From: Methanolobus profundi
Lineage (GTDB): Archaea > Halobacteriota > Methanosarcinia > Methanosarcinales > Methanosarcinaceae
Assembly (NCBI RefSeq): GCF_900114835.1
Contig: NZ_FOUJ01000001.1
Span: 62,001 to 126,000 of the forward strand
Direction: 5' to 3'
Length of the DNA stretch: 64,000 nucleotides
The notes under the pieces were generated by a model. The model searched no databases and had not been told where the DNA came from. It saw nothing but the letters and a program-made list of their open reading frames with translations. A program made the position numbers and the translations under genes. The stretch's first letter is position 1. Each line of letters opens with the position of its first letter. This document shows positions 14,705 to 27,412 of this stretch, one piece after another.

Positions 14705-14800
14705 CTCGTCTAAGTATTCACTATTTTCGATCACTCTAACTTGATCAAAAAGAAAGTCAATTGCAAGCAGAAAACTGCCATGAGATAAATACTAAAATAA

Positions 14801-14820
14801 AGCCAGTTTGTCAACTGGCT
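14801..14820 (-). terminator. Terminator of the tandem-paralogue unit at the end of the chemosensory cluster
   Basis: A perfect 8-bp stem, AGCCAGTT and AACTGGCT with loop TGTC, lies 26 bases past the stop of the gene at 14847. Read on the minus strand it is followed by TTTATTTTA. Confidence 0.75.
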
Positions 14821-14846
14821 TCAAAATAAAAAAGAGGTTTAATGTT

Positions 14847-15452
14847 CTAATCCTCAACGTAAAGCAGGTAAAGGCAGCTGTTCTCTCTCATTTCCATGAA
14901 TCCCTGGGTTTCGGAGATCCCGGCTTTTTCCAGTAATACCTTCTTCCATGATTCAGGTGGGAGTGCTATCTTTCCGGTGTATGCCTTTGCTGCTATCTGG
15001 GCATATTGCAATGGTTTTCCGCCGATCCTTATCCTCTTCGCAACTTCCTTACGGTATGTCTGGTGCATCATACATGCACTGTGTGCAGCGGAAGGTTGGA
15101 TAGTGTGGTTATAGTGGTCGGTAGCTTCCATGTGTACAGGGTTAAAATTGCCTATACGCTTGATGTATTCCCTGATAGCCTTGGAGAATGGACATACTTT
15201 AGTGACAAAACCATACTCACTTATCTGTCCTATGTGTTCGAATGATGAAAGTACGGATTCACCATTGGTCACAGCGTTGACGAAGTCATCCCATGTCTTA
15301 TATTCTTCTTCCGGAACGGATTTGGCAAGGGATTCAGCCTGTCCTACCATATAATTGGTAAAACCTTCTACACCCTGTTTATCAGATATATCCTCAAAGA
15401 AAAGGTACACTGATACATCAACAAAAGGATTTGAACCAATATTTTCAGCCAT
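14847..15452 (-). CDS. Unrecognised Cys/His protein, paralogue 2
   Basis: A 201-residue soluble protein, clearly paralogous to its upstream neighbour. Shared features are KVCPFSKAIREYIKRIG (C87), a DHYNH-x-I segment, and SACMMHQTYRKEVA (C127, H130), then a helical region and a short beta end (CLYLLYVED). The conserved CP and CxxH suggest a metal, haem or thiol site. I do not recognise the family. It follows its paralogue by ten bases, with GGGTGATAAT as ribosome binding site, and ends at a strong terminator. It has its own promoter region together with its partner. Confidence 0.65.
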   Translation of the reverse strand: MAENIGSNPFVDVSVYLFFEDISDKQGVEGFTNYMVGQAESLAKSVPEEEYKTWDDFVNAVTNGESVLSSFEHIGQISEYGFVTKVCPFSKAIREYIKRIGNFNPVHMEATDHYNHTIQPSAAHSACMMHQTYRKEVAKRIRIGGKPLQYAQIAAKAYTGKIALPPESWKKVLLEKAGISETQGFMEMRENSCLYLLYVED

Positions 15453-15462
15453 ATTATCACCC

Positions 15463-16089
15463 TTAATCGATTATCTCTTCGCCTGCACTCTTACCTTTCA
15501 CAATGAGGGCAAAGACACAGGATGCATTACGCAGTATGCTCTTGATATGTCTCTCATCAACATTGATCCTTGCGAGGTTCTCAGGCACCATCTTCACTTC
15601 ACCTGTCATTCCTTTGTTTGCCAGTTGCAGGCATTCAAGGGCCTGTTTTGCAACAGTTATATTGTTTGCTGCGACTTCTCTGAATTTCTGGTGTGTGATA
15701 CAGTAATTTGAGACTGCTGAATCTTTGATACGGTTGTTGTAGCTGTCAGCAACATCTGTATCAGAATCAGGGATCGGTCCTATTCTGGAAATATACCTTC
15801 CCATTGTAGGTGCCATAGGGCACACTTTAAGTGCATATACATAGCCGATGACATCTCCATCCTTATCAGTGATAGCAAGGTCTGTCTGGACATTCACGTC
15901 TCCTTCAACAGTAAGGGACGTTCTTCCATCCTTCATTGCTACATTGAAGGCAGGCCATCCTACGTATGCCTCTTTCCCCATCCTTTCAGCATAGCTCTCA
16001 CCTACGCGAAGCCAATATTCAACGACACCTTCAGTCCCTGCCTTGCTGACCATATCATCAACAAGCGAGTATATTGCAATGTCCATCAT
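15463..16089 (-). CDS. Unrecognised Cys/His protein, paralogue 1
   Basis: A 208-residue soluble protein. It shares with the next gene KVCPMAPTMGRYISRIG (C90), DSYNN-x-I, and NYCITHQKFREVA (C130, H133). The N-terminal half is more beta-rich and includes a DLAITDKDGDVIGYVYALKVCP run that could be a ligand-binding sheet. AGGAG lies ten bases before the ATG. An AT-rich promoter at about 16127-16146 separates it from the acidic protein, so the pair can be expressed apart from the che genes. Function is unknown; small-molecule binding is a guess. Confidence 0.65.
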   Translation of the reverse strand: MMDIAIYSLVDDMVSKAGTEGVVEYWLRVGESYAERMGKEAYVGWPAFNVAMKDGRTSLTVEGDVNVQTDLAITDKDGDVIGYVYALKVCPMAPTMGRYISRIGPIPDSDTDVADSYNNRIKDSAVSNYCITHQKFREVAANNITVAKQALECLQLANKGMTGEVKMVPENLARINVDERHIKSILRNASCVFALIVKGKSAGEEIID

Positions 16090-16126
16090 AGTTATAGATC
16101 TCCTTTATCATCTCAAGTATAATTTG

Positions 16127-16146
16127 TATTTATACAATATTTATAT
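16127..16146 (-). promoter_or_regulatory. Probable promoter of the tandem Cys/His paralogues
   Basis: On the minus strand two overlapping TATA-like elements (TATATAAATA and TGTATAAATAC) lie about 40-55 bases upstream of the ATG at 16089. They sit in a 109-base AT-rich gap after the acidic protein gene. Confidence 0.45.
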
Positions 16147-16198
16147 ATTAATTGTCTTCATGGTTTTTATTCTTTACCATTGAATTTATTAAAAAATA

Positions 16199-16729
16199 TT
16201 AAATTAGGTTTATTTTAATCCATTTAAGTTCGGGATTATCAGGATACAACTGTCCGGTAGTTGCATTATCTTCCTCTATTATCTGTGAAGCTTCTTCTTC
16301 GGACCTCACACTCATCTCAAATGTTTCTTCACCTGCGACATCATAGCGAAGGAAAAGCCTGCCACTTTCTGTCATGATAAGTCTGACAGAATCCTTGTTG
16401 CAGGTTTCAAGTCCAAGCTCATGTCCTCTCTGGCTTTTTGCTGTCCATACCGCTACCTCTGTTTCAGCATTATATGAAGCATCAACACCATCATTATCCA
16501 GCACAGTTCTGTTCTCTTCCTTATCAGAATCTGTAGTAACGTTATTCTCAAGAGAATATGACATCTCGCCTGAGCTCATATCTCCTGAAAGGAAGAGCGT
16601 AGCTCCTGTAGAGTAGTCTTCGTCTGCACCGCTCTTTACAAGGGAATGCAGCATCCTGGTGAATGTAGTGTCTCTGTCACGGTCATCTGTATTTGACCGT
16701 TCAAGATGCTGTGTCCATATATTTTTCAT
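16199..16729 (-). CDS. Unrecognised acidic protein of the chemosensory cluster
   Basis: A 176-residue soluble protein rich in Asp, Glu, Ser and Thr, with few hydrophobic runs except near the C-terminus (DSVRLIMTESGRLFLRYDV). It contains two likely beta-strand regions around residues 38-60 and 85-140 and no cysteine motif beyond one C. I do not recognise it. The ATG at 16729 is preferred over an upstream TTG. It follows the first CheC-like gene by about 36 bases on the same strand, so it is probably part of the same transcript. Confidence 0.55.
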   Translation of the reverse strand: MKNIWTQHLERSNTDDRDRDTTFTRMLHSLVKSGADEDYSTGATLFLSGDMSSGEMSYSLENNVTTDSDKEENRTVLDNDGVDASYNAETEVAVWTAKSQRGHELGLETCNKDSVRLIMTESGRLFLRYDVAGEETFEMSVRSEEEASQIIEEDNATTGQLYPDNPELKWIKINLI

Positions 16730-16765
16730 AAAGGTCAACCATTGAATATTTTGTATATTATTAGC

Positions 16766-17392
16766 TCATCCAAGCATTTTCATGATAGAGCCCTGTAACT
16801 TGTCAAGTGATGGTCCATCAAGTAAAAGGAACATATCACCGTATATCGTTCCGGCTCCTACATCTTTCTCTGAGGAATAGACCACGAACATTGTTTCAAT
16901 GTTCAATATCTTTGCAGGTTCTGTTCCTATCTTTGTCATTCCTTTGTCAAGTATATCCTTGATGTGACCGAGACTTATGTCCGGTACGGAATGAAGTAAT
17001 TTCAGATCAAGGAATGATGAGAGTGAGTTAAGATATGATCCTGCGATTATATTCCCGGTTTCAAGGAGTGCAGATTCATAAAGGTTTGGATCCTCGTCAT
17101 GCTCAAAACCCTGTAACAACAGGTTACTAAGATAAACAGCATTGCTAAATTCGAACATCAACATTACAAGACCGTTAAGGTCCCCATGAATTGGTATCAT
17201 TATACCGGTCATGGTTATCGAACCCGGGATCATATCGATAATGGCAGATGGTTCAAATAATCGTGCATCTGATAGGTTAAGCTGGACCCTCTTCTCTATT
17301 AGTTTTGAAAGGGATGTAGTTGCATTTCCCATCCCGATGCTTCCTATTTCCTTGAAAGCATCAATTGAGAAACTGTCCAGTTCTTTGTTCAT
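16766..17392 (-). CDS. cheC: CheC-family phosphatase homologue (site 1 altered)
   Basis: A 208-residue CheC-like protein. CheC dephosphorylates CheY-P using two E-x-x-N motifs. Here the first reads FKEIGSIGMGNATTSLSKLI, with the catalytic Asn changed to Ser (E-I-G-S). The second, ALLETGNIIAGSYLNSLS, keeps E-T-G-N. One functional site is therefore expected. The C-terminal MFLLLDGPSLDKL strand is typical. GGAG precedes the ATG. It is one of four CheC-like proteins in this cluster. Confidence 0.88.
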   Translation of the reverse strand: MNKELDSFSIDAFKEIGSIGMGNATTSLSKLIEKRVQLNLSDARLFEPSAIIDMIPGSITMTGIMIPIHGDLNGLVMLMFEFSNAVYLSNLLLQGFEHDEDPNLYESALLETGNIIAGSYLNSLSSFLDLKLLHSVPDISLGHIKDILDKGMTKIGTEPAKILNIETMFVVYSSEKDVGAGTIYGDMFLLLDGPSLDKLQGSIMKMLG

Positions 17393-18467: not shown

Positions 18468-18941
18468 TTAATATACTTTTATGCCTTTAAGCGCACTCTT
18501 GACAGTAAGCTCTCCGTTTTCTGTGTCAAGTATTATCGTACGTCCGTAGTTCTGTCCTGTATCTTCTGCAATAATGGGAATCTTAAGTTCTTTCAGTAAC
18601 TTCTTGGTGGCGGCTACATTCCTCTCTCCTATATTGAGCTGAGTGCTGGAATTAAAGGAGAACATACTTGCTCCGCCTGCTATCTTTGCTTTTGTACGGT
18701 GTCTGTAGGCACCCTCTTCCACCATGGCATCCATGAGTGCAGGTATGCCAGTGTCTGCAAACTTTGCAATGTTATCTTTAGACCTTGCCTGTTCAATACT
18801 CGGGAGCATGATATGTACCATCCCGCCAACGCCAGTGCTCTTATCATATAGCGAGATGCCTACACATGATCCCAGTCCAAGGGTTGTGAGCTTCAAAGGC
18901 TTCTTCGCCACCGCACTATCGGCCATTCCCACTATTATCAT
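18468..18941 (-). CDS. cheD: Chemoreceptor glutamine deamidase CheD
   Basis: A 157-residue CheD. The catalytic Cys is in TLGLGSCVGISLYD and the His in GGMVHIMLPS. The Thr and the glycine-rich KIAGGASMF and GERNVAATKKLL motifs are conserved. CheD deamidates receptor glutamines and, in other archaea and Bacillus, binds CheC to stimulate its phosphatase activity. It sits directly downstream of a CheC with two intact sites (start and stop nearly adjacent), which supports a CheC-CheD pair. Confidence 0.93.
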   Translation of the reverse strand: MIIVGMADSAVAKKPLKLTTLGLGSCVGISLYDKSTGVGGMVHIMLPSIEQARSKDNIAKFADTGIPALMDAMVEEGAYRHRTKAKIAGGASMFSFNSSTQLNIGERNVAATKKLLKELKIPIIAEDTGQNYGRTIILDTENGELTVKSALKGIKVY

Positions 18942-18943
18942 GT

Positions 18944-19558
18944 TTATCTCGAACGCATTTCTTCTATCCTTCCAAGTATGGTCTGCAATGAAGCTGAATC
19001 CAGCAGCATGTACATATCACCGCTCAGACTATGGGATTCATCTTCACCTACTATCTCGAACAGGGTTGTCAGACCAAAAATGTGTTCCATCTTTCCGCTG
19101 ATATGCTGCTTTGCTTTAGCGAATATCTCATCAGGGCTTCCTTCAGATATCTTTGGTATTGAAGGTATGATCGAGAGATTCAGGAATTTTGAGAGTGCAT
19201 TATAGTAACTTCCTGCAAGAATGTTAGCAACTTCCACAAAGGCTGATGTCTTCAGATACTCATCATCTTCCTGGTCAGTATCTTTAAGGAGCATTTCAGC
19301 CAGTATCTCAGAATGCTGTTTTCTAACGATGAGTATGAAACCACCGTTCATGTCACCCATTACTCTGACAATGGCTCCTACCCTATCGGTATCCTCTTTA
19401 GTGGTTATGTCTTTGCTGTCAAGTAATGTGAGGGATGAACTGCTAACCTTTATAGATTGGTCCACAAGTTGTGAAAGGGCTGTTGTTGCATTCCCCATCC
19501 CAATATTTCCCACTTCGTTCAATGCATCATAATAGAATTTATCAAGTACTATGTTCAT
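18944..19558 (-). CDS. cheC: CheC-family phosphatase, both active sites intact
   Basis: A 204-residue CheC. Both E-x-x-N sites are present: NEVGNIGMGNATTALSQL and FVEVANILAGSYYNALSKFL. It is thus the most canonical of the four CheC-like proteins here and the likely principal CheY-P phosphatase. The CheD gene follows with a two-base gap. The ATG is preceded by GGAGTGAGATGA. Confidence 0.92.
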   Translation of the reverse strand: MNIVLDKFYYDALNEVGNIGMGNATTALSQLVDQSIKVSSSSLTLLDSKDITTKEDTDRVGAIVRVMGDMNGGFILIVRKQHSEILAEMLLKDTDQEDDEYLKTSAFVEVANILAGSYYNALSKFLNLSIIPSIPKISEGSPDEIFAKAKQHISGKMEHIFGLTTLFEIVGEDESHSLSGDMYMLLDSASLQTILGRIEEMRSR

Positions 19559-19572
19559 TCATCTCACTCCTT

Positions 19573-20187
19573 TCATATCATCCTGTCGATCCTCTCAAGC
19601 ACAACATCCATCGAATCAGGATCGAACAATGTCAGGAATATTCCATCCATCTGGTGTCCTTCGATCATGAACAATGTATCAAAGAGCAATGCATGCTCTG
19701 CCTTTTTGCTCATTTCTATCAATATGTGGTCAATTATGGCGCCAAGCATATCGAATGTCTGCATAGGGGTAGATATCTTGATGTTAAGTCCCAGAAAATC
19801 TGAAAGAGAACTGACATAAGATCCTGCCAGTATGTGTCCAACCTCTTCTATGAGCGATTGGTTCAACGGGCTGAGAATATCGATATCTTCTTCGCCGGTT
19901 ATTGTGGAACAGATGGTCTTGACAGAGCTTTCAGAGATCATCATCATGATGTATCCGTCCACATCTCCAGCAACCTGCATGATGACTCCGGAGACAATGG
20001 TATCCGCTCCGCCTGCAACTTCTGGTACTTTCTCAATAAGCTCCACTTTAAGGTCAGGTACCTCTATCTTTACCTCTTTCGAGATCATCTTGGAGAGGGA
20101 AGTGACAGCGTTACCAATACCTATATTGGCTACTTCTCTTAATGCGCTGATCTGTATCTCTGTCAGATCCGATATATTATATTTCAT
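19573..20187 (-). CDS. cheC: CheC-family phosphatase homologue (site 2 altered)
   Basis: A 204-residue CheC-like protein. Site 1 is intact (LREVANIGIGNAVTSLSKMI). Site 2 reads LIEEVGHILAGSYVSSLSDFL, with Asn replaced by His (E-V-G-H). It retains the glycine-rich turns and the C-terminal IFLTLFDPDSMD strand. It lies between CheR and the canonical CheC. One functional site is expected; CheX- and FliY-like division of labour is possible. Confidence 0.88.
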   Translation of the reverse strand: MKYNISDLTEIQISALREVANIGIGNAVTSLSKMISKEVKIEVPDLKVELIEKVPEVAGGADTIVSGVIMQVAGDVDGYIMMMISESSVKTICSTITGEEDIDILSPLNQSLIEEVGHILAGSYVSSLSDFLGLNIKISTPMQTFDMLGAIIDHILIEMSKKAEHALLFDTLFMIEGHQMDGIFLTLFDPDSMDVVLERIDRMI

Positions 20188-20244: not shown

Positions 20245-21066
20245 TCATTTCTGGTAGATCCTCTCCTTGGAATTGTATGCTTTGAACATGTCCTTTGAAG
20301 GGCCAAGCAGGGTCTCTGTCTTGCCCATTACGAAGAACCCATCTTTTGAAAGTGCATTATAGAAATCCATGTAGAGCTGTTCCTGAAGCTCCTTCTGGAA
20401 GTAAATAGTGACATTCCTGCAGAACACTGCATCGAAACCACTCATCTTCGGACCGGATATAAGGTCCTGTTTTCTGAACTGTGCTATCTTTTTCAGTTCA
20501 TCGTTGATGACGTAGTCGTTCCCTTCCTTTGTGAAGTACTTTTTCAGAAAAGCAGGTCTTACATCTTTGATCTCAAGGCTGGAGTAGAGTCCTTTCTGTG
20601 CCTTTGCAAGACTATCTTTATCGATATCAGTTCCCGTGATCTTGATATTGTACTTCTTGAATTCATCGCCCAGAATATGGTGTAACAACATTGCGATAGA
20701 ATATGCTTCAACACCGATGGAACACCCTGCACTCCATATGCGTATGGAACGAAGTCCGGTGCTCTTAGCTTTGATGATAGCAGGAAGAACATCTTTCTCG
20801 ATCAGGTCATATACCTCGGGATTCCTGAAGAAATTAGTAACATTGACCGTCAGGGTTTCCATAAGTTCCGGCCATTCATCTTTGTTTGATTGAAGTGCAT
20901 TCAGGTAATCTTTATAGTTCTTAGAATTGGTTGCACGTAACCTGACATCTATTCTTCTCTTGAAATGTGAATCCTTATATTGTTCACAGTTAAATCCAAG
21001 TTTTTTATGTATGAGCTTTTTGAGTGCTTCATAGTCTTCATCTTTTTTTTGCATGGTATCAAGCAT
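20245..21066 (-). CDS. cheR: Chemotaxis protein methyltransferase CheR
   Basis: A 273-residue CheR with the helical N-domain (FKRRIDVRLRATNSKNYKDYL) and the SAM-binding motif IWSAGCSIGVEAYSIAM. The TGTDIDKDSLAKAQ acidic-loop strand and CRNVTIYFQKELQEQ are also present. It methylates receptor glutamates using SAM. No receptor gene is in the window, so its targets are encoded elsewhere or are atypical. The start lies two bases after the actin-like ATPase stop, with GAGGG as ribosome binding site, implying coupling. Confidence 0.94.
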   Translation of the reverse strand: MLDTMQKKDEDYEALKKLIHKKLGFNCEQYKDSHFKRRIDVRLRATNSKNYKDYLNALQSNKDEWPELMETLTVNVTNFFRNPEVYDLIEKDVLPAIIKAKSTGLRSIRIWSAGCSIGVEAYSIAMLLHHILGDEFKKYNIKITGTDIDKDSLAKAQKGLYSSLEIKDVRPAFLKKYFTKEGNDYVINDELKKIAQFRKQDLISGPKMSGFDAVFCRNVTIYFQKELQEQLYMDFYNALSKDGFFVMGKTETLLGPSKDMFKAYNSKERIYQK

Positions 21067-21068
21067 TT

Positions 21069-23189
21069 TTATCCCTCTACAAATTCTATTGTTACATTGT
21101 TTCCATCTCTCAGCGGGGTTGTAAACCTGGCCGGAACATTGTTCACAAGAAGCCTCATGCTCTTGCCAACAAGTTCTTCCTTTTTAATATCCATAAATTC
21201 GAACAGATCTGAAAGAATAGGGTCTGCTTCATCCCCGTTTTTGAACTTGACAGTATCGCCATCACTTACTTTGGCCGAAAGGTCCACTTTCTTTCCATTA
21301 AGGGTGATAACAGGCATTGAACCATTGAATATCACATCCTTTCCGTTCAGATTCACGGTTATCTTTCTGCCTTCTTCCGGTTCTCCAAGAATATTTTCAA
21401 GCCTGTATTCGAACTCGGTCTTCTTAATGTCGAGAATATCGCCATCTTCGAGCATGGTGGAAGAGAATTCTGAAGTATCCACTATTCGGTCATTGAGTTT
21501 CACGACATATTTCGTACTGCCAAAGTGCTGTATACGGTTATTTACGATGACACTGATCATTTCCGCTTCAGCGGGATCATATTCATTGTTAAGTATATCC
21601 TGCAGGCTGGCATTTCTTATCACTACCTGTGCCCTGTCAGGAACATTATCGTTAATAGAAGCCTTTTTGTCATTGATAGTTACAAAAGGGCTAAGTTCTG
21701 TGGCCTTGCCATTTGAAGTGATCGTTATGCTTTCCATTACATCTGATCTCTCAACAAGGTCCTTTATTTTCACATGTGCATTCTTTCCATCGATCGGAGC
21801 CTTGAACTCAATGGTCGCACCTTTATTCACCGGGTCTCCAAGATTGGCCTTTTTACCATCGACCAATATCTTTGCGTGTTCTCCCATTTCTCCTTCTATG
21901 GTGACGAACTCCGAGTTGACATTGAAACTGAGTGCCATTCCCGGACGTGGATATAGACGTTTGATCTTTGCAGCCACCAGCGCGTCCATAACGGATAATC
22001 CATTCACGTCCATGAGGTGTATCTCTGAACCGTTCACAGTAGCATCGATAAACTCTATGCCTTCGTTCAGGATCCCCATACGTGCTATCCCGATAGGTGT
22101 TATCATATCGGTACCGTTGATCATCCCGGTGTTATCTGAGAATTCCTCCACTTGTTTTGGAAGGCGTGAACCTATCCTTTGGGTGGGAAGTTCCAGATGT
22201 TTTGAGATGTGCTCCTTTAGTCCTGCTGTCTGTGAGCCCCCGCCAACAAGAACAACCGCTCTTGGTATCTTGCTGTTCAGTTCTTTGATCTCCTCTACGA
22301 TATGGAGTGCAAGTTTATCGACCTCTGGTTCGATGTCTGATATGATCTGACTTACAGGGACCTCTGAGGTGACACCGAAGATGTCTTCCAGCTCGATCAT
22401 CTCTTTTGTTGTCAGGGATTGTTTTATCATCTCTCCCTTTTTAAAATCCACAAGATACTTGTCACATATAAAATCCGTGATCTCATCACCTGCTTCAGGT
22501 ACCATTCCATATCCAATGACCGTTCCGTTATCGGTAATGGCTATATCTGAGGTTCCTGCACCGACATCCACAAGTGCGATATTGAGTTTCCTCATATCAG
22601 CAGGTATTGCTACATTCAATGCAGCTATAGGTTCCAGTGTGACACTGGATGCTTCAAGTCCGCATCTGTCAAGGACTGCGAACATACTATTGATAACAGC
22701 TTCCGGGAGGAATGTTGCAAGCACCTCCACGGAGATAGAACTTCCTTTCTGACCTACTATGTTAGCTATTCTCTGGCCATCTAGTTCGTAACTGACAACC
22801 GAATATCCAACACAATTGAATCCTTCATTGATCCCAAGTTCATTGCCAGCCCTTGCGACGGCTTCGAACTCAAGCTCAGAAATATCCATTCTTGTAATTT
22901 CTCTGTACGGTATTTCCAGGGAGAGCTTTACTTTTGATGTTCTCAGTGCTCTACCTGCAACCGCGACAGATACTTTTGATAGTTCATGCCCAATTTGTCT
23001 TTCCAGGTCGGTCTTCACCGCATCCACTACTCTGGCAACTTTCTCAACATCATGGATCTGTCCATCCTGCATGCTACGCTCATTATGTTCGTATATGCAG
23101 GCTGCTTTGATATTGAGCTGCTCATTGTCTGTGATGAGCCCGACAACGGTCCTCGTTCCGATATCCAGAGCAAAGTGGGCACTGTTCAT
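21069..23189 (-). CDS. FtsA/PilM-type actin-fold ATPase with C-terminal beta-rich repeats
   Basis: A 706-residue protein. Residues 1-350 form an ASKHA ATPase of the FtsA type: phosphate-1 FALDIGTRTVVGLI (6-19), an SHS2-like insert, phosphate-2 NIALVDVGAGTSDIAI (203-218) and adenosine motif VVLVGGGSQTAGLK (312-325). Residues about 420-706 contain several related beta-grasp-like modules with a recurring N-G-K ... D-G-D-x-V pattern. It closely resembles the ~700-residue 'FtsA-domain' proteins of Firmicutes. It lies inside the che operon between a CheC-like gene and cheR, overlapping neither by more than a base. No transmembrane helix is seen. A scaffold or polymer-forming role with the chemosensory array is inference. 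Confidence 0.85.
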   Translation of the reverse strand: MNSAHFALDIGTRTVVGLITDNEQLNIKAACIYEHNERSMQDGQIHDVEKVARVVDAVKTDLERQIGHELSKVSVAVAGRALRTSKVKLSLEIPYREITRMDISELEFEAVARAGNELGINEGFNCVGYSVVSYELDGQRIANIVGQKGSSISVEVLATFLPEAVINSMFAVLDRCGLEASSVTLEPIAALNVAIPADMRKLNIALVDVGAGTSDIAITDNGTVIGYGMVPEAGDEITDFICDKYLVDFKKGEMIKQSLTTKEMIELEDIFGVTSEVPVSQIISDIEPEVDKLALHIVEEIKELNSKIPRAVVLVGGGSQTAGLKEHISKHLELPTQRIGSRLPKQVEEFSDNTGMINGTDMITPIGIARMGILNEGIEFIDATVNGSEIHLMDVNGLSVMDALVAAKIKRLYPRPGMALSFNVNSEFVTIEGEMGEHAKILVDGKKANLGDPVNKGATIEFKAPIDGKNAHVKIKDLVERSDVMESITITSNGKATELSPFVTINDKKASINDNVPDRAQVVIRNASLQDILNNEYDPAEAEMISVIVNNRIQHFGSTKYVVKLNDRIVDTSEFSSTMLEDGDILDIKKTEFEYRLENILGEPEEGRKITVNLNGKDVIFNGSMPVITLNGKKVDLSAKVSDGDTVKFKNGDEADPILSDLFEFMDIKKEELVGKSMRLLVNNVPARFTTPLRDGNNVTIEFVEG

Positions 23190-23190
23190 C

Positions 23191-23808
23191 TTATCCCATC
23201 ATCTTCTTCATGATAGCTGCCATGATTATATCTGTAGCTTCAGGTTCGAAAAGCATGTTGAACTCATTCTTTGAATTTGTAGATGGTATCAGACATTCGC
23301 CTTTTACAACTATGAACTGATCAGCAAGATCACCTATCTCTTTCTTGATGAAATCGCCTACTCCTTCCATATTGACCTCGATGCTTGGATCACCGACCGT
23401 CATATCAATTCCGAGGAACTCATTCACTACACGCATGTATGCACTACAGAGATTGACTCCCATTTCACGGAGTTTCCTTTGCTGTGGTTCTTCTATCTTG
23501 GATGTTGAACCGATCGGCTTTTTCATAAGCAGGTCGGAAAATGATAGTGCAGAGAATTTAGGGAGCAGTATAAGTGTTCCACCGTTAACTTCACCTGATA
23601 TGTGAAGGTGGATACCCACAACGCTTTTGTTCTTTCCTTCTTCATTGCTCTTTGCGATTATATCGTCCAGACTCAGCATTTCAACAACTGGGATATCTAT
23701 TTTTACGTCCCTGCTTACCATTTTTGAAAGCGAGGTTGCCAGGTGGCCCATTCCAATGTTTCCTGCTTCTTGAAATGCTCCTTTTGCCATTTCGTCCATT
23801 TCTGCCAT
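23191..23808 (-). CDS. CheC-like protein, second catalytic site lost
   Basis: A 205-residue divergent CheC relative. Site 1 is intact (FQEAGNIGMGHLATSLSKMV). Site 2 reads KLREMGVNLCSAYMRVVNEF, where Asn is replaced by Val. The middle strand VVGIHLHISGEVNGGTLILL and the C-terminal FNMLFEPEATD are typical. It lies directly between cheA and the actin-like ATPase, one base from the latter, so it may link the two. The reduced conservation suggests adaptor more than phosphatase function. Confidence 0.82.
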   Translation of the reverse strand: MAEMDEMAKGAFQEAGNIGMGHLATSLSKMVSRDVKIDIPVVEMLSLDDIIAKSNEEGKNKSVVGIHLHISGEVNGGTLILLPKFSALSFSDLLMKKPIGSTSKIEEPQQRKLREMGVNLCSAYMRVVNEFLGIDMTVGDPSIEVNMEGVGDFIKKEIGDLADQFIVVKGECLIPSTNSKNEFNMLFEPEATDIIMAAIMKKMMG

Positions 23809-23823
23809 ATTATTCCCTCATAT

Positions 23824-25866
23824 TTAGATCAATGTAGCAATATCCAGGATAAGTGCGACACTTCCATCCCCGAGGATCGTTGCACCCGCAAATCCTTTCA
23901 TATTCTTCAATATTTTATTATCAAGTGTTTTAATTATTACTTCCTGCTGTCCCAGAAGGTCGTCGACTACAAATCCGATGTTATTTCCCATCTTCTCTAC
24001 AACTACGACTATGAGATTTTCTTTCTCTTCCGGTTCAGTAGGACAGTTCAGTACATCATGCAGTCTAAGGAGTGGTAGTACCTCACCTCTGAGCATGATG
24101 ACTTCCTTACCTTCTATTGTCTTTATGTCACTGGCCTTGATCCCGACATCACGAATGACGTTACCAAGCGGTATGGCATATGTTTCATCGCTTACGGTGA
24201 CCATAAGTGACTGGATAATGGCCACTGTCAATGGTAGCTGGAGTCTCATAATGCTGCCCTGTCCTGGTACAGAAGTTATTTTCACACTTCCACCGAGAGC
24301 TTCTATCTTTGTTTTGACAGCATCCATGCCCACGCCTCTTCCTGAGATGTCGGTGACGGTCTTAGCTCCGCTAAAGCCAGGCATGAAAATAAGGTTCAAA
24401 GCATCTGCATCAGAGAGTTTATCTACTTCTTCTCTGGTAAGTAATCCTTTCTTGACAGCCACGTCTCTTAGATGAGCAGGGTCCATTCCCTTTCCATCAT
24501 CCTCTACTTCAATAAGGACACTGTTCCTCTGACGTGAGGCAGCCAGTCTTACAAGACCTGCTATAGGTTTTCCGATATTTTGACGTTCCTCTTCAGGTTC
24601 GATCCCATGGTCTACTGCATTACGGAGCAGGTGAACAAGTGGGTCTCCTATCTCATCGAGTACCGTCCTGTCAAGTTCGATCTCTTTTCCTTCGATGATG
24701 AGATTTATCTGCTTACCTTCGGATTTAGCAAGGTCTCTTACCATTCTTGGGAATCTGCTGAATATCTGGTCTATCGGGACCATTCTGGATTCCATAACCT
24801 CTGTCTGTATCTCATTGGTGAGGCGGTCAAGGTTGGCAAGTGATTCATCGAGATCTTTCGCATTAAGGTCAGAAGCAAGCTGGTTCAACCTGATCTTGTT
24901 GATAATGAGTTCTCCAACGAGGTTCATCAGATTGTCAAGTCTTTCTATATTCACCCTGACACTCTGTATGCTCTTCACGGCATCCGATCTCTTTACACCT
25001 GATCCTGTTGTCTGCTGAGCTTCAGATTCTGTTTCTTTAACCACTTCTTCTTTCTCATCAGACCCGGCAGTTTCTGATATGGTGGTCGGTATGATCTCTT
25101 TGATCTCCGATATCTTCTTCAGGGTCTCAATGATCTGTTCATCAGTGGTCTTTGTTGCAAATATTACTGTGAATTCTAGGTCGAACTTCTCGTCCTCAAG
25201 CTCTGCTTCGTCCGGTACACATTTGATGATCTCTCCCATCTTTGTGACATTTATCAGTACCAGTGTGGATCTGGCGGATTTAAGGACACATGAATCATCA
25301 AGAACTACTTTCAGGGATACGACTCTGTTCCCATCACCTGATGCGGTCGCAATGGCCTGCTTTTCACTTTCTGACAAGTCTATATCCGTTTGTGGTATGA
25401 CTTCCTCTTCCGGTTCAAGCTCTGTGCCTACGTCGGCTTCAATGGTCTCGATACTTTCAGCCACAGTGCTTGCTATATCATTCACTGGAAGAGTACCTTC
25501 CATTGCTTTTGTGAGTGTGCCCTGAAGTGTACTTATATCGATAGTTTCCCCACTGTCCACAGTCTCTACCAGAGCTTCCAGGGTATCAAGACATTCAAAG
25601 AGAACATCGATAAGCCCATTGCTCACGGCTACCTGTGACTTTCTTACCATGTCCATGAGGTTCTCCATCTCATGGGTCAGTTCTGCAATGGTGTTGAATC
25701 CCATAGTTGCTGACATTCCTTTCAACGTATGGGCTGAACGGAACATGGTATTGATGTATTCCAGGTCCTTGGGATTCTGTTCGAGTCCCAGTAATGAATC
25801 GTTAAGTTGTTGCAGGTGCTCTTCAGACTCTGCTTTAAATATTTCTTTATATTCTGACATATCCAT
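23824..25866 (-). CDS. cheA: Chemosensory histidine kinase CheA
   Basis: A protein of about 680 residues with the full CheA plan. P1 has the phosphorylated His in RSAHTLKGMSATM (H46). An acidic linker and P2-like response-regulator-binding domain (about 175-270) follow. P3 is the dimerisation helix pair (NLMNLVGELIINKIRLNQL). P4 is the ATPase with HLLRNAVDHGIEPEEE, DDGKGMDP and GRGVGMDAVK. P5 is the CheW-like end. No separate CheW is present. The ATG at 25866 has GGTG five bases upstream; a GTG at 25872 also fits. Confidence 0.95.
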   Translation of the reverse strand: MDMSEYKEIFKAESEEHLQQLNDSLLGLEQNPKDLEYINTMFRSAHTLKGMSATMGFNTIAELTHEMENLMDMVRKSQVAVSNGLIDVLFECLDTLEALVETVDSGETIDISTLQGTLTKAMEGTLPVNDIASTVAESIETIEADVGTELEPEEEVIPQTDIDLSESEKQAIATASGDGNRVVSLKVVLDDSCVLKSARSTLVLINVTKMGEIIKCVPDEAELEDEKFDLEFTVIFATKTTDEQIIETLKKISEIKEIIPTTISETAGSDEKEEVVKETESEAQQTTGSGVKRSDAVKSIQSVRVNIERLDNLMNLVGELIINKIRLNQLASDLNAKDLDESLANLDRLTNEIQTEVMESRMVPIDQIFSRFPRMVRDLAKSEGKQINLIIEGKEIELDRTVLDEIGDPLVHLLRNAVDHGIEPEEERQNIGKPIAGLVRLAASRQRNSVLIEVEDDGKGMDPAHLRDVAVKKGLLTREEVDKLSDADALNLIFMPGFSGAKTVTDISGRGVGMDAVKTKIEALGGSVKITSVPGQGSIMRLQLPLTVAIIQSLMVTVSDETYAIPLGNVIRDVGIKASDIKTIEGKEVIMLRGEVLPLLRLHDVLNCPTEPEEKENLIVVVVEKMGNNIGFVVDDLLGQQEVIIKTLDNKILKNMKGFAGATILGDGSVALILDIATLI

Positions 25867-25917
25867 GGTCACACCAACCCTGGGATCACAATGATCTTCT
25901 TCTTTTTCAAAAACATT

Positions 25918-27024
25918 TTAATCACCGGAGGAATTCAGCATACGTAAGATCTCACCCGATATTCTGTTCAGTGGTACGATACTGTCTGCAAGACCTCTTT
26001 GTACGACTGCTTTTGGCATACCATAGACAACACAGGACTTCTCATCCTCTGCAATTGCCTTTCCACCGGCACCCTTTATCTCCTCTACGCCATCTGCGCC
26101 ATCAGCACCCATTCCTGTCAGAACAGCGCTTACGATGTTCGACCCGTATATCGGGACCAATGACTTGAAAAGTATATTTGCACAAGGCCTTACTCCCTGT
26201 TCACGGGGATTCTGGTTGAGCGAGACCACTTCGTGGTATACGCCTCCTTTTTCCTTCGAGACTATCTCCATATGATAATTTCCAGGTGCAAGGTAGGCAT
26301 GTCCTGCATGAAGTACATCTCCTTCCTTAGCTTCTGTTACAGTTAATTGGGATTGTCCGTCAAGTCTTTGTGCAAGAGATGCTGTAAATCCGGCAGGCAT
26401 ATGCTGGACTATCACCACTGGTACTTTCAGGTCACCAGGTAATTTTGGGATCACCTGTTCAAGTGCACGGGGTCCGCCTGTTGAAGATGCAATCGCAATG
26501 ATCTTGCTATTTGCATGATGTACGCTCTTTCTTGCAACCGGTTTCTTTTTAGTAGTACGCAAGGCTCTACCTTCATTCTCACGTGATTTTTTCACGTGTT
26601 CTTCCATGAACCCGAGTTTCTTCAGGTCCACCTTAGAGGCCATTTTTACTTTAATGCGGATCTCTTTAGCAATATCCGCGATGTTCAAACTTATATTTCC
26701 TGATGGTTTCTGTATGAAATCCACTGCTCCATATTCAAATGCGCTTAGTGTACTCTCTGCTGACTTGGAGTCGATCGCTGTTAACATCACTACTGGTGTT
26801 GGACATTCACTCATGATATATCCCAGAGCATGCAGTCCGTCAAGTACTGGCATCTCAACATCAAGAGTTACAACATCAGGTCTGTACTTTTCGACCTTTT
26901 CTACGGCTTCAAGCCCATTCCTGGCAGTAGCTATTACTTTTATCTCAGGGTCTTCTGTCAGGATGTCCGAGACAACTTTACGCATTAGTGCGGAGTCATC
27001 GACTACAAGTACATTGATGGTCAT
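25918..27024 (-). CDS. cheB: Receptor methylesterase/deamidase CheB
   Basis: A 368-residue CheB. The receiver domain has phosphoacceptor D55 (VVTLDVEMPVLDG) and D9-D10. The C-terminal methylesterase has the Ser of IASSTGGPRALE, the His of VQHMPAGFTASLAQRL and the Asp of GMGADGADG, the catalytic triad. A basic linker (about 135-170) joins the domains. It lies one base from cheY upstream, and about 50 bases before cheA. Phosphorylation by CheA should activate it. Confidence 0.96.
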   Translation of the reverse strand: MTINVLVVDDSALMRKVVSDILTEDPEIKVIATARNGLEAVEKVEKYRPDVVTLDVEMPVLDGLHALGYIMSECPTPVVMLTAIDSKSAESTLSAFEYGAVDFIQKPSGNISLNIADIAKEIRIKVKMASKVDLKKLGFMEEHVKKSRENEGRALRTTKKKPVARKSVHHANSKIIAIASSTGGPRALEQVIPKLPGDLKVPVVIVQHMPAGFTASLAQRLDGQSQLTVTEAKEGDVLHAGHAYLAPGNYHMEIVSKEKGGVYHEVVSLNQNPREQGVRPCANILFKSLVPIYGSNIVSAVLTGMGADGADGVEEIKGAGGKAIAEDEKSCVVYGMPKAVVQRGLADSIVPLNRISGEILRMLNSSGD

Positions 27025-27025
27025 A

Positions 27026-27382
27026 TTAGATTACTTTTCCAATAACTTCCAGCACCTTAGCTGCATCGAATGGCTTAACTATGAAGTCCTGTGCACCGGT
27101 TTTGAGTGCATCTGTGACCACGGACTGCTGCCCAATGGATGAGCACATAACTACCTTTGCGGCAGGATCCATTTCCATGATCTTCTTCAAAGCATCGATA
27201 CCTTCCATATTAGGCATCACAATATCCATGAAGACCAGTTCAGGTTTCACTTGTGGATACTTGTTCACAGCATCGAGACCATCGACGCATTCGGCAACTA
27301 CTTCATGACCATTTTTTGTTAAAATGTCCTTGATGACCATGCGCATGAATGCAGCATCGTCTACAATCATTACTTTTACCAT
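27026..27382 (-). CDS. cheY: Chemotaxis response regulator CheY
   Basis: A single receiver domain of about 118 residues. It begins MVKVMIVDDAAFMRMVIKDI; the phosphoacceptor is D53 in LVFMDIVMPNMEG, with the conserved Thr/Ser position in MCSSIGQ and Lys in FIVKPFDA. Several ATGs are possible (27382, 27391, 27400, 27412). GGGAG on the minus strand at 27398-27394 best fits 27382 (11-base spacing), which also gives the usual CheY length. It is the first gene of the cluster. Confidence 0.93.
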   Translation of the reverse strand: MVKVMIVDDAAFMRMVIKDILTKNGHEVVAECVDGLDAVNKYPQVKPELVFMDIVMPNMEGIDALKKIMEMDPAAKVVMCSSIGQQSVVTDALKTGAQDFIVKPFDAAKVLEVIGKVI

Positions 27383-27412
27383 TTTATTCATATCTCCCAT
27401 GTTTGGTATCAT

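Follow-up and report, generated by a model that had tools for sequence, protein, structure and literature searches.

Few signalling systems are as well mapped as chemotaxis, and to our knowledge no actin-fold protein is among its core parts. In the case of FtsAL, the actin-fold protein described here, the closest described proteins are FtsA and PilM. FtsA (TIGR01174, PF14450) has the fold predicted for FtsAL, including the 1C subdomain, and the same nucleotide motifs. However, FtsA ends in a C-terminal amphipathic membrane-targeting helix, in place of which FtsAL has a beta-grasp tail of ~330 residues, and FtsAL scores 112.9 bits against the TIGR01174 FtsA equivalog, below the cut-off of 175.85. 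The ftsAL gene, unlike the division ftsA gene, is not beside ftsZ. PilM, a type IV pilus platform protein (PF11104), has a similar fold and matches the whole FtsAL core in sequence, but its structures fit FtsAL less well than those of FtsA. FtsAL scores 38.1 against the Pfam PilM model (cut-off 27) and 47.4 bits against NCBIfam pilM (cut-off 133), and no pil genes (pilN/O/P/Q) were found in the ftsAL operon or among the scanned Bacillota neighbours. A third group, the FtsA-domain proteins of about 700 residues from Bacillota, has the invariant motifs and beta-grasp tail of archaeal FtsAL and is homologous to it over the full length; the genes of this group are usually not beside che genes, unlike archaeal ftsAL.

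MamK is a magnetosome protein that belongs to another actin family than FtsAL and is not the product of a che operon. In Magnetospirillum this actin homologue interacts with the chemoreceptor Amb0994 (PMC6056624). MinD4 and CetZ1, nucleotide-binding proteins of Haloferax volcanii, are needed to position chemosensory arrays and archaella (PMC11588486, PMC11621097); they are members of the ParA/MinD and tubulin families, which are unrelated to the actin fold of FtsAL. The open-access literature yielded no paper that links an FtsA-fold protein to chemotaxis or gives a function for the ~700-residue Bacillota family. This agrees with the sequence-only reading that preceded our analysis, which knew of no described role for an actin homologue in a Che system. 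The fold and the system are each known, and their combination appears to be undescribed.

FtsAL and the che operon of Methanolobus profundi

The window analysed is a stretch of 64,000 nucleotides of the Methanolobus profundi genome. On its minus strand, from 27412 to 14847, lies an operon with the gene order cheY, cheB, cheA, cheCa, ftsAL, cheR, cheCb, cheCc, cheD, a gene for a 334-aa membrane protein, cheCd and three small genes (Table 1). The hairpin that follows is likely to be the 3' end of the transcription unit. The CheA encoded here is the only one in the host genome, which also encodes three CheW and 11 MCPs, so this operon is its sole chemotaxis core. The ftsAL reading frame is intact and is separated by 1 nt from cheCa upstream and by 2 nt from cheR downstream. 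An ORF of 456 aa on the plus strand (20980-22350) was set aside as an antisense shadow of ftsAL that has no supporting evidence.

Table 1. Features of the che operon and of ftsAL (positions in the window)
Feature	Position	Strand	Evidence and remarks
cheY	27026..27412	-	ORF; assigned from sequence and operon position; syntenic
cheB	25918..27024	-	ORF; assigned from sequence and operon position; syntenic
cheA	23824..25872	-	GTG start; sole CheA-sized CheW-domain protein in genome
cheCa, divergent CheC	23191..23808	-	First E-x2-N site intact, second degenerate (N to V)
ftsAL, FtsA-fold protein, 706 aa	21069..23189	-	ORF (ATG at 23189, stop at 21069), Pfam, AF2 model, Foldseek
ASKHA/FtsA-type core with FtsA-type 1C subdomain, residues 1-375	22065..23189	-	Foldseek to FtsA
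Phosphate-1 motif ALDIGTRTV, residues 7-15	23145..23171	-	D9, G11, T12, R13 invariant in 51 sequences
Phosphate-2 motif LVDVGAGTSD, residues 206-215	22545..22574	-	D208, G210, A211, G212, T213, D215 invariant in 51 sequences
Adenosine motif GGG, residues 316-318	22236..22244	-	Invariant in 51 sequences
Beta-grasp (ThiS/TGS-like) repeat chain, residues 376-706	21072..22064	-	Pfam ThiS; DSSP of model; homologue C-termini
cheR	20245..21066	-	PF01739 7e-54
cheCb	19573..20187	-	First E-x2-N site intact only, second N to H
cheCc	18944..19558	-	Both E-x2-N sites intact, unlike the other three CheC paralogues
cheD	18468..18941	-	PF03975 3e-37
Membrane protein, 334 aa	17410..18414	-	No known family; syntenic
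cheCd	16766..17392	-	Second E-x2-N site intact only
Three genes of unknown function	14847..16738	-	Syntenic; 179 aa (16738-16199), 208 aa (16089-15463), 201 aa (15452-14847)
Terminator-like hairpin	14798..14823	-	11 bp stem and T run, directly past last operon gene

The N-terminal half of FtsAL is predicted to adopt an FtsA-type actin fold. On residues 8-342 Pfam placed PilM_2 (1.2e-9), the top-scoring family, and FtsA (4.4e-8), with ThiS on residues 526-588, all above cut-off. The 18 best PDB matches of the AF2 model (pLDDT 84.5, from an alignment of 51 homologues) were all FtsA in Foldseek, filament structures among them; 7q6f fitted best (target TM 0.86 over 392 columns), the 1C subdomain of the predicted model was covered, and PilM, EutJ and MreB came next. 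The nucleotide motifs D9-x-G-T-R, D208-x-G-A-G-T-S-D and G316-G-G, as well as T364, are intact and are invariant or nearly so across the 51 homologues. Archaeal and Bacillota members have DxGTR, DxGAGTxD and GGG in common, together with the family signatures MxDGQ[IV]HD, AGRxLxT, TFLP, TLEPIA and AGD. Repeated beta strands run from residue 378 to 706 of the model (DSSP), and the ThiS family is matched by 29 of the 51 members. The dN/dS of ftsAL is 0.07-0.08, similar to that of its neighbours cheA and cheR.

The sequence-only reading had described an FtsA-type ATPase with intact ATP motifs and a long beta-rich region, placed two bases or less from a CheC-like gene and from cheR and akin to the ~700-residue proteins of Firmicutes (Bacillota). 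Structure model, alignment and coordinates bear out each of these points; identity to the Bacillota proteins is 31-44%, with shared motifs, and the loss of nucleotide-binding residues that had been named as refuting was not seen. FtsAL is nevertheless not the division FtsA, since the six carriers checked each encode, immediately upstream of FtsZ, an FtsA proper of 416-423 aa, and since FtsAL has no membrane helix. The split between FtsA and FtsAL is 100% supported, with a long branch. FtsAL homologues whose C-terminus is complete finish with a beta-grasp repeat; FtsA from these same Bacillota finishes, for example, in IKDFLDEYF. The Arg in the EPR of 7q6g, which we take to be a conserved residue of the FtsZ-tail binding region of FtsA, aligns to FtsAL position 289, where Arg is found in 1 of 51 sequences and the alignment is weak.

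The 208-aa and 201-aa proteins at the end of the operon are paralogues (29% alike) and are terminal in the examined relatives whose loci reach that far. Across genera the two show 79-90% identity, and the 208-aa protein is 97-99% identical to those of two Methanolobus relatives (dN/dS 0.007-0.017). Cys-Pro and Cys-x2-His-Gln are invariant; searches gave no Pfam family and no significant PDB sequence match. A model (pLDDT 74) shows a weak likeness to TRAPP, BcsD and MopR-sensor folds (best E 0.01), and the pair are possibly small-molecule sensors.

A PF04283 search found no CheF in the host genome, and full CheF occurs only in genera without CheCa. Substitution of CheF by CheCa or FtsAL was considered and rejected, because CheF is known in Methanococcoides burtonii, whose CheF is included in a published alignment (PMC2666748), and because a Methanolobus has a CheF-like gene. 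This gene (L191:5173-5760) encodes a short divergent protein of 195 aa with the N-terminal CheF part, scores below the CheF model cut-off, and lies in a probable archaellum cluster beside an ArlH-like ATPase.

Distribution and origin of ftsAL

When 186 genomes of the order were searched, 24 of 27 Methanolobus and one genome of another Methanosarcinaceae genus (G077) had an intact ftsAL. Sampling 393 genomes across the phylum brought no further copy outside Methanolobus. Among the Methanolobus copies are relatives at 72-82%. All 25 intact archaeal copies occupy the same slot, cheY-cheB-cheA-cheC-ftsAL-cheR, and their synteny with che genes is far above chance. Conservation of the che neighbourhood in relatives, which the sequence-only reading had proposed to check, stands for every intact archaeal locus but is restricted to Methanolobus and one other genus and is not general in Methanosarcinaceae. 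Three further genera (g9, g11 and g12) have a che operon with cheCa and no ftsAL.

The remaining Methanolobus genomes differ from one another. In G122, ftsAL is cleanly absent, leaving ~74 bp between cheCa and cheR. In G125, a remnant (L091:6768-7412) joins residues 1-104 in frame to residues 600-705, and D42 and T84, otherwise invariant in the family, are both changed; we read it as a decaying gene, an assembly fault being less likely. In G128, neither CheCa nor ftsAL gave a match. The cheCc gene is also absent from G122 and G125, which are members of separate Methanolobus clades, and the joint loss has p = 0.009 among 26 loci, a small sample. Since these two genomes lost ftsAL yet retain most of the che operon, ftsAL is an accessory gene. 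One other genome, G126, has a truncated cheCc (L089:7026-7363) despite an intact ftsAL.

Phylogenetic analysis placed the archaeal copies in one fully supported clade against all Bacillota copies. A single archaeal clade thus faces a family spread through Bacillota, which points to a probable ancient transfer with Bacillota as the most likely donor. The direction is taken from the distribution, 90 of 391 Clostridia-class genomes versus two archaeal genera, and not from tree rooting; rooting with FtsA left it unsettled, since a very long branch joins the two. The horizontal transfer from Firmicutes that had been suggested as possible from the letters alone is supported as likely on this basis. 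In the operon tree g11 is the sister of Methanolobus (99) and G077 lies deeper. This is most simply explained if the ancestor common to these genera acquired ftsAL and the gene was later lost several times. A single gain in Methanolobus alone is disfavoured, as G077 has the gene in the same slot and its operon branches outside Methanolobus plus g11.

Bacillota copies are rarely found beside che genes. Of ~60 loci, only two (L035 and L047) have an adjoining che gene, which in both is cheR upstream. The neighbours are mostly housekeeping or GGDEF genes, such as nth with a GAF/GGDEF protein, coaE/polA, a vanW-like gene or a lytic transglycosylase gene; another neighbourhood is acuABC-ccpA-aroA-ytxJHG, and motA/motB-type stator genes lie near ftsAL in Virgibacillus. 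Rarity beside che genes had been named as refuting the chemosensory assignment, which survives within archaea; the Bacillota copies usually lie elsewhere, though they track CheA. In L161, L172 and related Clostridia loci, an endonuclease III gene often precedes ftsAL and a GAF protein gene follows it, several of these proteins having a GGDEF (c-di-GMP) domain. A plasmid search returned two family copies only, both from Bacillota. The copy on an Anoxybacillus amylolyticus plasmid (L203:5989-8148, WP_066327715.1) is labelled pilus assembly protein PilM, a label that is probably misleading.

To assess co-occurrence with CheA, 391 genomes from the Clostridia-like class that includes G528 were used, with a full FtsAL called at E < 1e-60, a level at which FtsA proper, reaching only 1e-22 or weaker, does not score. 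FtsAL was present in 90 genomes and CheA, above cut-off, in 153. CheA accompanied 89 of the 90 FtsAL carriers and 64 of the 301 non-carriers (Fisher 1e-44, uncorrected for shared ancestry and lifestyle), and the sole carrier lacking it, G883, has a genome of 1.8 Mb. Among genomes of at least 2 Mb, all 87 carriers had CheA, and none of the 31 CheA-lacking genomes with listed size had FtsAL (p 8e-12). In the 29 genomes that underlie the first homologue search, a set that overlaps the one above, 27 of 29 carriers had CheA. CheA marks flagellated cells generally, and therefore other traits could contribute to this co-occurrence. Archaella and flagella are, however, unrelated machines, so that the part common to archaeal and Bacillota carriers is the Che pathway.

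Candidate functions of FtsAL

The bacterial relatives of FtsAL occur almost only alongside chemotaxis, which makes it probable that the protein works in chemotaxis, a role so far unrecognised, and not in division. The best explanation of the protein is a paralogue from the FtsA/PilM branch of actin-fold proteins that is dedicated to chemotaxis. The sequence-only reading had put forward positioning of the arrays or an output of CheA signalling, and both stay at the level of hypotheses. We favour, tentatively, a nucleotide-switched scaffold that would organise or position the chemosensory machinery. The FtsA-like head, whose motifs and fold are compatible with ATP-dependent polymerisation, would bind ATP and self-associate, and the beta-grasp tail would bind chemosensory proteins. 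FtsAL may in this way help to assemble, hold or position the CheA/receptor array or the adaptation enzymes CheR, CheC and CheD, as an accessory that improves the chemotaxis system and not as a step of the phosphorelay. The constant che slot of the archaeal copies, the co-occurrence with CheA, the FtsA-like fold and the joint loss with cheCc in two lineages speak for such a scaffold, and MinD4, CetZ1 and MamK may serve as precedents. Against it stand the Bacillota genes outside che operons, the other Methanosarcinaceae that keep a che operon without ftsAL, and the losses in G122 and G125. The FtsAL sequence showed no sign of a route to the membrane-bound array.

The main rival is a role in adaptation, in which FtsAL, rather than organising structure, would recruit or regulate the methylation system (CheR with CheC/CheD) in a nucleotide-dependent way. 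The flanking of every intact archaeal copy by cheC and cheR is consistent with this, as is the disappearance together with ftsAL of cheCc, the paralogue with both sites intact. The sole che gene found beside Bacillota ftsAL is likewise cheR, but two loci of ~60 may be chance, and the sister genera retain CheR, CheC and CheD without FtsAL. We consider this role unlikely, if worth keeping in view.

Three further readings are less probable. FtsAL could be an ASKHA chaperone or reactivase, like EutJ, diol dehydratase reactivase (DDR) or DnaK, that builds or renews Che complexes and forms no filaments. EutJ models align to the ATPase core (1.6e-16), EutJ also resembles it in structure, and the DDR model is matched by 13 of the 51 members; FtsA and PilM structures are nevertheless clearly better matches than EutJ, MreB or DnaK, and the 1C subdomain is covered, which makes this reading quite improbable. 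A motor-side or appendage assembly factor, that is, a PilM-like cytoplasmic platform serving the archaellum or flagellum and not the sensory array, appears slightly more doubtful still. PilM_2 is the best Pfam match and PilM structures come just behind FtsA, archaellins occur in all Methanolobus, and the stator genes of Virgibacillus lie close by. However, a motor-side partner common to the unrelated archaellum and flagellum is hard to imagine, ftsAL lies within the che operon with no adjacent PilN-type partner, and many genomes that lack FtsAL have archaellins too. A division or envelope protein riding by chance among the che genes of a single archaeal lineage, as the FtsA fold and the housekeeping neighbours of the Bacillota gene might suggest, is the least likely of all given the near-exclusive occurrence with CheA, the exact slot in all intact archaeal copies, the separate FtsA-FtsZ pair of the same genomes and the missing membrane-targeting helix.

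The scaffold reading can be extended to the family as a whole. FtsAL would then be a widespread cytoskeletal chemosensory component of chemotactic Bacillota that was transferred once into methanogens, where it became fixed in their che operon, and whose ATP-dependent assemblies organise receptor arrays or adaptation enzymes; this fuller account is possible, though we hold it with more reserve than the scaffold itself. If confirmed, a family that databases label 'FtsA' or 'PilM' would belong to chemotaxis in methanogens and in a large part of the motile Bacillota, among them Lachnospiraceae of the gut, and an actin homologue would have moved between domains and been rewired into an archaeal signalling operon.
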